A program made the translations under genes and the position numbers. Below the pieces are notes generated by a model. That model did no database searches and was not told the DNA's origin. It saw only the letters and a list, made by a program, of their open reading frames with translations. Shown one piece after another: positions 11,651 through 18,350 of a stretch of 21,261 nucleotides of DNA; the first letter of the stretch is position 1; each line of letters opens with the position of its first letter. This DNA comes from an uncultured Cyanobium sp. (GTDB taxonomy: Bacteria; Cyanobacteriota; Cyanobacteriia; PCC-6307; Cyanobiaceae), in the NCBI GenBank assembly GCA_937919075.1, contig CALFOF010000293.1, positions 1 to 21,261 on the forward strand. The letters run 5' to 3'.

Positions 11651-12814
11651 GTGACCATTCAGTTAGGCGGAAAGCGCACCGTCCGTCGTGCCTACGGAAT
11701 TGATGAAATCGCTCTGGTTCCCGGAGGTCGCACGGTCGATCCGGATGTCACCGACACCCGCTGGAGCCTCGGTGGCATCGATCGCGAAATCCCGATCATC
11801 GCCAGCGCGATGGATGGGGTGGTGGATGTGTCGATGGCCGTCGAGCTCTGCCGCCTCGGCGCGCTTGGGGTGCTCAACCTTGAGGGCGTCCAGACCCGCT
11901 ACGAGGACCCCAACCCGGCACTCGACCGCATCGCGGCGGTGGGCAAGCAGGATTTCGTCCCCTTGATGCAGGAGCTGTACAGCCAGCCTGTGCAGGAAGT
12001 GCTGATCCGCAGGCGCATTGCCGAGATTCGCGAGCAGGGCGGCATCGCCGCCGTCAGCGCCACCCCCGCTGCCGCGTTGCGCTTTGGCAAGGCGGTGGCG
12101 GAAGCCGGCGCTGATCTCTTCTTCGTGCAGGCCACGGTGGTGTCCACCGAGCACATCGGGCCTGAGGGCCGCGAGCGGCTCGATCTGGCCACCCTCTGCC
12201 GCGAGATGGGCGTGCCGGTGGTGATTGGTAACTGCGTCACCTACGACGTGGCCCTGGAGCTGATGCGCGCCGGTGCCGCCGGGGTGCTGGTGGGCATCGG
12301 CCCTGGCGCCGCCTGCACCTCCCGCGGGGTGCTCGGGGTGGGCATCCCCCAGGCCACCGCAGTCGCCGACTGCGCCGCTGCCCGCGACGACCATGAGCAG
12401 GAAACCGGGCGCCGCGTGCCCGTGATCGCCGATGGCGGCATCGTCACTGGCGGCGACATCTGCAAGTGCATCGCCTGCGGGGCCGATGCCGTGATGATCG
12501 GCTCGCCGATCGCGCGGGCGGCCGAAGCACCGGGCCGCGGCTTCCACTGGGGCATGGCCACACCGAGCCCGGTGCTGCCGCGGGGCACCCGCATCAGCGT
12601 CGGCACCACCGGCAGCCTCGAGAAGATTCTGCGCGGCCCCGCCAGCCTCGATGACGGCACCCAGAACCTGCTGGGAGCCCTCAAGACATCGATGGGCACG
12701 TTGGGTGCCCGCACCCTCCGCGAGATGCAGCAGGTGGAGGTGGTGGTGGCCCCCTCCCTGCTCACGGAAGGCAAGGTGTATCAGAAGGCTCAGCAACTGG
12801 GCATGGGCAAGTGA
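11651..12814 (+). CDS. guaB3: GuaB3 family IMP dehydrogenase-like protein
   Basis: This is a 387-residue TIM-barrel protein of the IMP dehydrogenase/GMP reductase superfamily, which converts IMP to XMP in guanine nucleotide synthesis. The catalytic loop reads GIGPGAACTSRGVLG, with the active-site Cys at 222. The phosphate-binding segment VIADGGIVTGGDI and the GADAVMIGSPIA strand follow. There is no CBS pair between the barrel strands, and the length and N-terminus (VTIQLGGKRTVRRAYG) fit the cyanobacterial GuaB3 group rather than canonical GuaB. GTG 11651 is the start, since residues further upstream have no family resemblance. Yfr1 and trxA follow downstream, the order I recall from related marine cyanobacteria. 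Confidence 0.93.
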   Translation: MTIQLGGKRTVRRAYGIDEIALVPGGRTVDPDVTDTRWSLGGIDREIPIIASAMDGVVDVSMAVELCRLGALGVLNLEGVQTRYEDPNPALDRIAAVGKQDFVPLMQELYSQPVQEVLIRRRIAEIREQGGIAAVSATPAAALRFGKAVAEAGADLFFVQATVVSTEHIGPEGRERLDLATLCREMGVPVVIGNCVTYDVALELMRAGAAGVLVGIGPGAACTSRGVLGVGIPQATAVADCAAARDDHEQETGRRVPVIADGGIVTGGDICKCIACGADAVMIGSPIARAAEAPGRGFHWGMATPSPVLPRGTRISVGTTGSLEKILRGPASLDDGTQNLLGALKTSMGTLGARTLREMQQVEVVVAPSLLTEGKVYQKAQQLGMGK

Positions 12815-12887: not shown

Positions 12888-12907
12888 CGAGACGGGGGCT
12901 AGTCTCG
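12888..12907. repeat. Inverted repeat with GGGGGCTA loop upstream of Yfr1
   Basis: CGAGAC (12888-12893) and GTCTCG (12902-12907) are perfect complements around the loop GGGGGCTA (12894-12901). The same octamer recurs at 12914-12921, exactly 20 bases later, as the loop of the Yfr1 5' hairpin. This first copy covers the zone where the Yfr1 -10 box (TAGTCT at 12900-12905 is the best candidate) should lie. Confidence 0.7.
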
Positions 12908-12908
12908 T

Positions 12909-12970
12909 GCCGTGGGGGCTACGGCTCGCACACTCCTCACACCACCCCGCCCGGCGCGTCCGGGCATTTT
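12909..12970 (+). ncRNA. yfr1: Yfr1 small regulatory RNA
   Basis: Yfr1 is a short cyanobacterial trans-acting RNA that pairs with target mRNAs, notably outer membrane porin messages, through an unpaired core. Three parts are visible in order. First, a 5' stem GCCGT/ACGGC (12909-12913 with 12921-12925). Second, a single-stranded stretch carrying the invariant ACTCCTCACAC at 12932-12942. Third, a 3' terminator stem GCCCGG/CCGGGC (12949-12954 with 12960-12965) followed by ATTTTCTCTT. Its place between guaB3 and trxA matches the synteny reported for marine cyanobacteria. The 5' end is approximate (12908-12914), as the promoter is weakly defined. The size, about 60 bases, is normal. Confidence 0.93.
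12949..12970 (+). terminator. Intrinsic terminator of Yfr1
   Basis: A six-base-pair all-GC stem, GCCCGG and CCGGGC, closes a CGCGT loop and is followed by ATTTT and further pyrimidines. It forms the 3' hairpin of Yfr1 and may also insulate trxA from guaB3 read-through. Confidence 0.85.
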
Positions 12971-13003
12971 CTCTTCCAACGTTCGGTGGCGGTCCCGGGA
13001 ATG

Positions 13004-13030
13004 TTGCCAATGCCGTTGCTACATTGGCAA
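13004..13030 (+). promoter_or_regulatory. Perfect 9-bp inverted repeat overlapping the likely trxA promoter
   Basis: TTGCCAATG (13004-13012) and CATTGGCAA (13022-13030) are exact reverse complements separated by nine bases. The right arm overlaps an extended -10-like sequence, TGCTACATT (13017-13025: TG, one base, then TACATT). The trxA start codon is only 20 bases downstream. The layout suits an operator for a dimeric repressor or activator, or a leader hairpin if transcription starts further upstream. No regulator was identified. Confidence 0.6.
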
Positions 13031-13049: not shown

Positions 13050-13373
13050 ATGTCCAGCGCCACTGCCGTCACCGACGCCTCCTTTGAGCTGGATGTGCTC
13101 AAGAGTGATGTGCCCGTGCTGGTGGATTTCTGGGCTCCCTGGTGTGGTCCCTGCCGCATGGTCGCCCCGATCGTCGATGAAATCGCCAAGGAATTTGAGG
13201 GCCGCATCAAGGTCTTCAAGCTCAACACCGACGAAAACCCCAACGTCGCCAGCCAGTACGGCATTCGCAGCATTCCCACTCTGATGGTGTTCAAAGGTGG
13301 TGTGAAAGTCGACACCGTCGTTGGCGCCGTGCCCAAGAACACTCTGTCCGGCACCATCACCAAATACCTCTGA
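13050..13373 (+). CDS. trxA: Thioredoxin (TrxA/m-type)
   Basis: Thioredoxin reduces disulfides of target enzymes in the cytoplasm and receives electrons from ferredoxin- or NADPH-dependent reductases. The 107-residue protein has the classic active site [10 protein letters not shown], with the redox cysteines at 32 and 35. The buried Asp in VLVDFWA, the cis-proline segment RSIPTLMVF and the terminal helix all fit. Length is typical of the m-type TrxA of cyanobacteria. ATG 13050 is the start: it precedes the fold directly, and the frame upstream runs into Yfr1. Expression probably starts at its own promoter, which carries the inverted repeat at 13004-13030. The LOG-family gene follows after 23 bases. 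Confidence 0.97.
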
Positions 13374-15965: not shown

Positions 15966-16373
15966 TTGACAGGTGATCTGATCCCGGCAACGGCTCCTGG
16001 GGGGGCAGCGGCCACCCCCTTTCGCCGTCAGGGTCTGATCACAGCGATGGTGCTGATGGCTGCTGTCGCCTGTGCGCTGCTGGCCCTTGGGTTGCTGCCC
16101 TCCATCGGTGGCGACCCCTACACCCGCCAGACCCTCGACCTGTCCGGTTCGGCCGATCGCGGCAGCAGGCTGTTCTTGATCAACTGCGCCGGCTGCCACG
16201 GCATCGCCGGGCAGGGGCTGGTGGGCCCGAGCCTGCATGGCGTCACCCAGCGCAAGAACGATCGCCAGCTCGTGCAGCAGGTGGTGAGCGGCCGCACCCC
16301 GCCCATGCCCCGCTTCCAGCCTGATCCCCAGGCCATGGCTGACCTGATCGCCCATCTCCACGCACTGGCGTGA
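15966..16373 (+). CDS. cytM: Cytochrome cM
   Basis: This is a membrane-anchored class I c-type cytochrome of the CytM type, a minor cyanobacterial cytochrome linked to stress and dark or mixotrophic growth. One hydrophobic segment (about 24-47) is followed by the haem site NCAGCH (Cys74, Cys77, His78). The likely axial Met is in TPPMPRFQP (Met114). The stretch [21 protein letters not shown] is characteristic of CytM. The start is uncertain: TTG 15966 gives 135 residues, whereas ATG 16047 gives 108, closer to the short CytM of other cyanobacteria. A run of seven G at 15999-16005 lies between them. It is divergent from petG and overlaps the next gene by GTGA. Confidence 0.88.
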
Positions 16374-17170
16374 CAGCCCCTGCGCCCGTTCCCTTGCCAC
16401 TGGTGGTGGTGCTGGTCGAACCTACCGGGCCGCTCAATGTGGGCAGTGCTGCCCGGCTTTGTGCCAACTTCGGCATCAGCGAGCTGCGCCTGGTGGCGCC
16501 CCGCTGTGATCACCTCGGCGATGAAGCCCGCCGCATGGCCGTGCATGCCCAGCCGCTGCTGGAGAAGGCCTTGGTGTTCCCCGGCCTGGCCGCCGCCATC
16601 GCCGATTGCCGCCGCGTTGTGGCAGCCAGCGGTCGGCCGGAGGCAGCCCCGGTGGCCGTGGTGGATCCGCCCGAGGCCTTTGCCTGGCTGGCGGCTGGGG
16701 CTGGAGATGGAGGCGCAGAAGGAAAAAGAGGCGGAGAAGGAGAAGGAGGTGGGGCCGCTGGTATGGGCCCCCGTCCTGGTGACGGTCCCGACAACAGCCC
16801 CGGCGTGGCGGCGCCGGGTGCGGCCGCCCTCGTGTTCGGCCGGGAAGACCGGGGGCTGAGCAACGACGAACTTCTGCAGGCCGGACGGGTGCTGCGCATC
16901 GCCGCCGATCCCGCTTACACCTCGCTCAACCTTTCCCACGCGTTAGCCATCGTGTTGCACGAATGGCACCGGTTCCACGCCCCTCGTCCCGGGCCCTGGC
17001 CTGCCCCCCGCCACGGCGCTGCCCACACCGGTGCGGCGCGCCGATCTGGAAGCGGCGCTGGCCGATGCCCAGGCCCTGCTGTTGGAGGTGGGCTTTCTGC
17101 TGCCGCACACGGCCCATGCCCGCATGGCCAAGGTGCGTGGACTGCTGCAACGGGCCCAGATCGATGCTGA
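16370..17170 (+). CDS. trmJ: TrmJ-family tRNA/rRNA 2'-O-methyltransferase, frameshifted near the 3' end
   Basis: This is a SPOUT methyltransferase of the TrmJ group, whose known members methylate the ribose at tRNA position 32. Motif 1 is VEPTGPLNVGSAARLCANFG (16-35), motif 2 ALVFGREDRGLSNDEL (153-168) and motif 3 IAADPAYTSLNLSHALA (177-193). After residue 211 the protein continues in a non-conserved Gly/Ala/Arg-rich frame up to the stop at 17168-17170. The true family C-terminus lies in another frame at 17010-17237. Removing one C from the six-C run at 17004-17009 joins the frames into 288 residues. A low-complexity insertion sits at about 110-150. GTG 16370 overlaps the cytM stop. The break could be real, programmed or an assembly error. 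Confidence 0.8.
   Translation: MTAPAPVPLPLVVVLVEPTGPLNVGSAARLCANFGISELRLVAPRCDHLGDEARRMAVHAQPLLEKALVFPGLAAAIADCRRVVAASGRPEAAPVAVVDPPEAFAWLAAGAGDGGAEGKRGGEGEGGGAAGMGPRPGDGPDNSPGVAAPGAAALVFGREDRGLSNDELLQAGRVLRIAADPAYTSLNLSHALAIVLHEWHRFHAPRPGPWPAPRHGAAHTGAARRSGSGAGRCPGPAVGGGLSAAAHGPCPHGQGAWTAATGPDRC
16697..16820 (+). other. Low-complexity insertion in the TrmJ homologue
   Basis: Between the end of the first half (DPPEAFAWL) and motif 2 (AALVFGRED) lie about 40 extra residues, Gly/Glu-rich then Pro/Gly-rich. The DNA at about 16700-16760 is a purine-rich run of GGAGAAGGA-like units, unlike its GC-rich surroundings. In another frame the same bases would encode a Lys/Glu-rich repeat. It probably arose by slippage and forms a surface loop. 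Confidence 0.6.
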
Positions 17171-17237
17171 TGAAGTGGCCCTGCTGCGCGGCATGGTCCG
17201 GCAGCTGCGCTGGGCCACCGATCGCCGGACCCCTTAA
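17010..17237 (+). pseudogene. Displaced C-terminal segment of the TrmJ homologue
   Basis: The frame from 17010 encodes ATALPTPVRRADLEAALADA and continues to QLRWATDRRTP before its stop at 17235-17237. The stretch LLLEVGFLLPH...MAKVRGLLQRAQIDADEVALLRGMVRQL matches the helical C-terminal end of TrmJ-type proteins. It has no start codon of its own before GTG 17031 and no ribosome binding site, so it is the separated tail of the upstream gene rather than an independent gene. The break is at or near the C run at 17004-17009. Confidence 0.8.
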
Positions 17238-17258
17238 CGTCCTGCCAATCCTTCTTGC

Positions 17259-18350
17259 TTGTCTGTGCGCTCGGGCCGTCCCCCCCGATCCGGATCCACC
17301 GGCTGGTTTCAGCCCCTGGCCATGGTGCTGCGATTGCTGGTACTGGGCGTCGGCCTCGGTGTGATCACCGGCACGGTGCTCAAACAGCTCGCCCCTCGGA
17401 TGGCCCAGGGCGCGATGGACACGCCGCGCATGGGAGCAGCCAGCACGCCGGTGGCGGCGCTGCAGCAGGGCATCCCACTGGGCAGTTTCGAGCCCCGCAA
17501 GGAGCTCACGGCCCTCAGCGCCCGCTGGAAGGCCCTGGCGGCGGCCCAGAAAGACCTCAAGGTGGGCGGCTACCTGCTGGTGCTCGATGACGGCCGCTTC
17601 GCCCAGCTCAATGCCGACACGCCGCTGCCTGCCGCCAGCTCGATCAAGACGCCGATCCTGCTGGTGGCACTGGAGGATCTCGACCGTGGCAAGTTGCGCT
17701 GGGGCGAACCCCTACCGCTCACCAAAGAGGTGGTGGGCGGTGGCGCCGGCTGGATGGCCAGCCGTCCGCTCGGGACCCGCTTCCCCTTCTACGAGGCGGC
17801 CACCGAGATGATCCGCGTCAGTGACAACAGCGCCACCAACCTGGTGATCAAGCGCGCGGGGGGAAAGCTGGCCATCAATGCCCGCTTTCAGGCGCTGGGC
17901 CTGCCAGCCACCGTGTTGAACAACTGGTTGCCCGATCTGGAGGGCACCAACACCACCAGCCCCCATGACCTCGCCCGCTCCATCGCCTTGGTGGACACCG
18001 GCGCCAAGCTCAGTCCACGGGCACGGGATCACTTCCGCACGATCATGGGCACCTCGCGCACCAACACCCTCCTGCCTGCGGGCGTGCTCAGGGGAATCGG
18101 CGGCAACTCCAGCGATCCCGACAGCGAGCTGCTGGCCCGCGGCATCACCGTGCTCAACAAGACCGGTGATATCGGCATTGCCTACTCCGATGCCGGACTG
18201 ATCGAACTGCCCAATGGCCAGCGGGCCGTGGCGGCGTTCATGGTCAAGGGCCCCTTCAACGATCCCCGTTCCACCGATCTGATCCGGGCGATGGCCGCAG
18301 CCCTGAGTGAAACCCTGATCGGCCGTTCCCCTGCCCCCACCCCGCGATGA
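17259..18350 (+). CDS. Class A beta-lactamase-fold serine hydrolase, membrane-anchored
   Basis: This 363-residue protein has an N-terminal membrane anchor (about 19-42) and a periplasmic serine hydrolase domain of the beta-lactamase/penicillin-binding type. All three active-site elements are present: SxxK at Ser127-Lys130 (ASSIKTP), SDN at 188-190, and KTG at 301-303 (LNKTGDIG). The omega-loop region (NNWLPDLEGTNTTSPHDLA, 221-239) lacks a clear ExxLN motif, so the deacylating Glu of true class A beta-lactamases is not evident. A role in peptidoglycan handling is therefore at least as likely as antibiotic hydrolysis. The start is TTG 17259 or GTG 17265, neither with a good ribosome binding site. 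It ends in an ATGA overlap with the DUF3370 gene. Confidence 0.87.
   Translation: MSVRSGRPPRSGSTGWFQPLAMVLRLLVLGVGLGVITGTVLKQLAPRMAQGAMDTPRMGAASTPVAALQQGIPLGSFEPRKELTALSARWKALAAAQKDLKVGGYLLVLDDGRFAQLNADTPLPAASSIKTPILLVALEDLDRGKLRWGEPLPLTKEVVGGGAGWMASRPLGTRFPFYEAATEMIRVSDNSATNLVIKRAGGKLAINARFQALGLPATVLNNWLPDLEGTNTTSPHDLARSIALVDTGAKLSPRARDHFRTIMGTSRTNTLLPAGVLRGIGGNSSDPDSELLARGITVLNKTGDIGIAYSDAGLIELPNGQRAVAAFMVKGPFNDPRSTDLIRAMAAALSETLIGRSPAPTPR

Follow-up and report, generated by a model that had tools for sequence, protein, structure and literature searches.

Yfr1 is a small regulatory RNA of almost all cyanobacteria, usually found beside a thioredoxin gene. A sequence-only reading of a 21,261-nucleotide contig from an uncultured Cyanobium sp. 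(the window, meaning the whole stretch of DNA analysed) placed a Yfr1 RNA between guaB3 and trxA. Is this stretch a genuine Yfr1 gene or a part of one of its neighbours, and with which RNAs might it pair in this lineage?

A Yfr1 gene between guaB3 and trxA

The covariance-model search that the sequence-only reading had proposed was run with the Rfam Yfr1 model, RF01116. The match at 12912-12968 (+) spans model positions 1-59 of 59 and scores 62.9 bits (E 1.4e-10), well over the curated cut-off of 38 bits, with the predicted 5' end at G12912. It is the sole Rfam match over cut-off in the window and the only RF01116 match in the genome assembly (2.31 Mb, 389 contigs, 88% complete). The invariant core claimed from the letters is there as well: the 11-base pairing sequence ACTCCTCACAC is exact at 12932-12942 (+), occurs once in the window and once in the whole assembly, and is present in 0 of 100 dinucleotide shuffles of the window. 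Both flanks bear out the proposed syntenic place, with an IMP dehydrogenase-like gene upstream (guaB3, 11651-12814 (+), start codon approximate; PF00478, 7e-47) and a thioredoxin gene downstream (trxA, 13050-13373 (+); PF00085, 4e-33). In the GTDB genome set, which may leave out the window's own record, a 42-base stretch of this Yfr1 is matched exactly just once, by Synechococcus sp. ATX 2A4, the nearest named relative found.

The minimum-energy fold consists of a 5' hairpin, an open linker and a terminator stem, as had been proposed; the T-run said to follow proved to be interrupted, with four T in a row and no clean run. The 5' hairpin (12912-12931 (+)) has seven pairs plus one 1x1 internal G/G mismatch at the fourth pair, within the 6-10 bp and at most one bulge or internal loop expected of Yfr1. 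A single mismatch at the fourth pair is common to 23 of 30 folds, and a mismatch in the Yfr1 5' helix has already been described (PMC2190773). The core lies within a linker of 17 nt (12932-12948 (+); family range 16-20 nt) that is unpaired in both the minimum-energy and the centroid structures. The terminator, recovered by fold and by terminator scan (12949-12975 (+) with its T-tract), has a stem at 12949-12965 of six G-C pairs followed by ATTTTCTCTT, which agrees with the G+C-rich 6-9 bp hairpin and U-tail of the family; the tail itself reads AUUUUCUCUU. The fold energy by itself does not stand out (z -1.74, with 8 of 200 shuffles folding equally well) and 0.6 such terminator sites are expected by chance in the 1.2 kb scanned, so that the case rests on the covariance score, the conservation and the gene order.

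Yfr1, its core and the guaB-yfr1-trxA order were published in 2007. For Prochlorococcus and Synechococcus that report describes, as here, two hairpins, an unpaired linker of 16-20 nt with the exact ACUCCUCACAC, a U-tail and this gene order (PMC2190773). The window differs in details only, namely the interrupted T-tract and a linker ending in ACCACCCC, an ending common, among the 30 loci fetched for comparison, to the same-genus loci L015 and L016 plus L030. An abundant transcript of 54-69 nt also belongs to the family definition. Yfr10 and Syr5-type RNAs share the core motif (PMC6778093), but in Yfr10 it sits in a single-stem loop and synteny is lacking, whereas the window RNA has it between two stems and next to trxA; neither of the Yfr10 features was found in the window RNA. 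The window RNA is thus confirmed as an ordinary, well-formed Yfr1 ortholog, real but expected.

Elsewhere in the window, a SpoU/TrmJ-type RNA methyltransferase gene (16370-17260 (+)) has an apparent C-terminal part that continues in the next frame, the change falling between about 16975 and 17040; it looks like a frameshifted gene or an assembly error at that place. At 17259-18350 (+) a Beta-lactamase2-family protein (PF13354, 2.1e-49) adjoins a DUF3370 protein (PF11850).

Conservation, promoter and absence among relatives

RF01116 gave exactly one match, above cut-off, in each of 51 of 60 genomes (own included), and among 14 control genomes it matched only Synechococcus elongatus. The 30 loci fetched (own included) are those with the best E-values of the 51. 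In all 30 of these the core is exact and trxA lies 3' of yfr1 (cut by a contig end in L024). The order guaB3, yfr1, trxA, usual but not universal for the family, is found in 29 of the 30, the window among them; the only exception is L023, where the 1.5 kb upstream gave no guaB3 match.

In an alignment of 28 distinct rows, 95.3% of pair cells are kept, with 92.3% paired in the 5' helix and 98.8% in the terminator helix. When the structures are slid along the alignment, the paired fraction falls to 20.7-48.8%. Covariation counts, which are inflated by the kinship of the aligned sequences, include 13 cells in which both partners changed, where shuffles average 4.3 (0 of 500 reach 13), and four pairs with double changes, where shuffles average 1.5 (3 of 500 reach four). 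The slide by -2 likewise gives four pairs with double changes, equal to the real structure, and for further pair types the count does not exceed that of the shuffles (232 of 500).

Conservation extends upstream of the RNA start. Among 28 same-family rows (L019 and L023, from other families, were left out), T(-12), A(-11) and T(-7), counted from the first model position, are unchanged in 26 rows apiece; G(-16) is found in 25 rows and G(-14) in 23. Upstream of -20 every column stays at or below 0.33 bits, with no conserved -35 element. From these columns we place a putative -10 element, TAGTCT, at 12900-12905 (+). The pattern supports a promoter of yfr1's own that would lack a -35 box, which would explain why a consensus sigma-70 scan reported no yfr1 promoter.

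A mechanism can be proposed from these features together with published work on Prochlorococcus and Nostoc, from which transcription of the plus strand, repression and titration are all extrapolated. Directed by the -10 box, transcription would begin near 12912 and stop at the 12949-12965 hairpin, giving an RNA of about 57-63 nt. The two hairpins would hold the 17-nt linker single-stranded, leaving the core to pair with mRNAs around the ribosome-binding site and block their translation, with porin mRNAs as the likeliest targets; Yfr2-type RNAs would compete for the same core. We assign a probability of about 0.96 to this whole explanation, a Yfr1 gene of a picocyanobacterium with promoter, two hairpins, core-mRNA pairing and Yfr2 competition.

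Nine of the 60 genomes have no RF01116 match (G009, G010, G012, G015, G018, G022, G027, G035 and G044), of which G044 falls outside the family. G009, G015, G018 and G022 (71, 90, 81 and 72% complete) contain only distant thioredoxin-like matches with 28-34% identity; they say nothing on loss, as their assemblies seem to lack the guaB3-trxA locus. G010 (99% complete; L057) retains guaB3 and trxA separated by a 47-nt spacer with no Yfr1 between them, apparently a clean loss. The guaB3-trxA pair is also present in G012 and G035, where the core is absent, and these three genomes thus appear to represent three Yfr1 losses. Copies of the core occur elsewhere in G010, one being the antisense of its Yfr2 RNA and another lying at C61:19759. 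G027 has the exact core at the Yfr1 place (L054), about 148 nt upstream of trxA, with neither hairpin, and yields no RF01116 match even at E up to 1; this looks like a Yfr1 that has decayed or changed greatly and of which only the core survives. The sole match in the scan of G027, to a microRNA family far below cut-off, was taken as chance. Published Yfr1 losses concern low-light Prochlorococcus (PMC2190773, PMC6778093).

The partner RNA and candidate targets

Yfr2 (Cyano-1, RF01701) is the partner RNA, with the opposite motif, complementary to the Yfr1 core. It was identified in 36 of 40 genomes at E up to 0.001, and the Yfr2-family RNAs of the relatives carry the complementary motif. The complementarity itself is published (PMC6778093). 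Pairing was compared using one locus per genome, omitting one off-register row (L095, G017) and eight Yfr2 loci from other families. The same-genus genomes G001 and G002 each have a single Yfr2, whose motif is an extended GGGGGUGUGAGGGGUG; with the window-type linker it makes about 15 pairs and reaches -28.8 kcal/mol, compared with -15.1 to -26.6 kcal/mol for the own Yfr1 linker and Yfr2 of 13 other genomes. The stronger Yfr1-Yfr2 pairing in this genus is our own observation, drawn from two close genomes. Linker swaps show no specific co-evolution: the Yfr2 of G011 reaches -27.1 kcal/mol with the window linker versus -22.3 with its own. At L084, L094 and L106 an exact Yfr1 core lies close upstream of Yfr2 on the same strand, which fits the published Yfr10 RNAs upstream of Yfr2.

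For porins there is experimental precedent. Yfr1 represses a fusion to the 5'UTR of a Prochlorococcus porin gene in E. coli and Yfr2 relieves the repression (PMC6778093), and 11 Nostoc mRNAs are regulated through the Yfr1 core in E. coli, where reporters have likewise shown porin repression for Nostoc (PMC6974561). We searched OprB-type porin leaders, of which the own assembly has one and G001 and G002 three each, using the unpaired linker only, since duplex energies for the whole RNA were distorted by pairing of the hairpin arms and were discarded. All four leaders of the tandem porins of G001 and G002 contain GUGUGAGGA, an exact 9-nt complement of the core (pairing with UCCUCACAC) that ends 4-5 nt before the AUG; part of this site (GAGGA) is also Shine-Dalgarno-like. 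With one tandem porin the linker duplex reaches -20.5 kcal/mol with 11 pairs in both genomes, and 0 of 200 shuffles are as low. The other tandem porin gives -15.7 kcal/mol and nine pairs in G001, a marginal value that 12 of 200 shuffles reach, and -17.0 kcal/mol for a discontinuous best duplex in G002 (3 of 200). Since the tandem pair probably arose by duplication and G001 and G002 are closely related, the four leaders would be nearer to one or two independent events than to four.

The third porin leader contains no core-matching site in any of the three genomes: 68, 92 and 244 of 300 shuffles are as low in the own assembly, G001 and G002, respectively, and the best linker duplex of the own porin is -11.6 kcal/mol. 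This porin (L042) and its counterparts (L043, L046) were rejected as Yfr1 targets, having no site above shuffles. The porin control anticipated by the sequence-only reading thus finds backing in the literature and in the tandem leaders of G001 and G002, but not in the sole porin of the own assembly. Neither Yfr2 nor the tandem porins were found in that assembly, at 88% completeness, and for this genome we therefore infer both from its relatives. Silencing of porins by Yfr1 may occur in this lineage, as the related genomes suggest.

Other candidate targets yielded little. In the own genome, apart from the antisense of Yfr1, the only 10-nt complement of the core is at C279:1361, apparently inside a coding frame; there is no enrichment of core complements, since a backwards control pattern also occurs once. 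The leaders of pyrophosphatase genes, a published Prochlorococcus target, show a site for the window linker in 0 of 5 cases (the start of L130 is doubtful, and the own-genome gene, a fragment, is not among the five). Five mraY rows were discarded for implausible start codons (the first ATG of the open segment), with the wrong frame in at least two.

The comparisons of porin leaders and of Yfr2 provide modest leads. They can be combined into a speculative picture that we consider doubtful, in which this genus tunes Yfr1 through strong partners, with a Yfr2 sponge, seeded tandem porins and a third porin that has escaped, while elsewhere in the family Yfr1 is lost or reduced to a bare core.

Alternative readings and the meaning of the locus

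Could the stretch belong to one of the neighbouring genes? The trxA reading frame can be followed back without interruption to a GTG at 12912, as would befit a coding 5' extension of trxA, and the trxA frame is open through Yfr1 in 7 of the 30 loci, the window included; in the other 23 an in-frame stop falls inside Yfr1 or between Yfr1 and trxA, and on these stops the coding reading was rejected. Conservation moreover tracks the RNA structure and the unpaired core, and trxA has a probable -10 box of its own, TTGCTACATT at 13016-13025 (+), with TTGCTANATT present between yfr1 and trxA in 21 of the 30 loci. We give a trxA extension virtually no credence. A 9-bp perfect inverted repeat at 13004-13030 encloses part of this -10 box; by eye it is intact in L015, altered in L016 and not evident in ten other printed spacers, and it was taken as chance. 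On the upstream side, yfr1 follows guaB3 in the same orientation at a distance of about 100 nt, ends in a terminator that can also terminate guaB3, and drew no promoter call from the sigma-70 scan, all of which would suit the 3' end of the guaB3 transcript, or a product processed from it, rather than an independent small RNA. Against this stands the strongly conserved -10 box 7-12 nt before the predicted 5' end, with hardly any conservation further upstream. Yfr1 is also found without guaB in some published genomes (PMC2190773, Table 2), as appears to be the case at L023. We regard a guaB3 3' end as very improbable.

A different question is whether the core acts by base pairing or is a protein-binding site, an early alternative raised in PMC2190773. 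Its invariance would be unusual for an antisense RNA, and so would the very high abundance of Yfr1, given as 18,000 copies per cell for S. elongatus PCC 6301 (quoted in PMC6974561). That Yfr2-family RNAs and the start sites of porin genes carry sequences exactly complementary to core bases argues instead for pairing, as do published core mutations after which pairing and regulation are lost or reduced (PMC6778093, PMC6974561). We consider protein binding in place of antisense action improbable, somewhat less so than a guaB3 3' end.

The favoured reading is therefore that of a Yfr1 gene whose RNA would act through its core, and the window adds another clean instance of a small RNA that ranks among the most conserved in cyanobacteria and that protein-only annotation would miss. 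The relatives that have lost Yfr1 or kept only its core would allow a test of whether the hairpins are needed, and porin leaders with and without the seed within one genus would provide a natural test of porin control.
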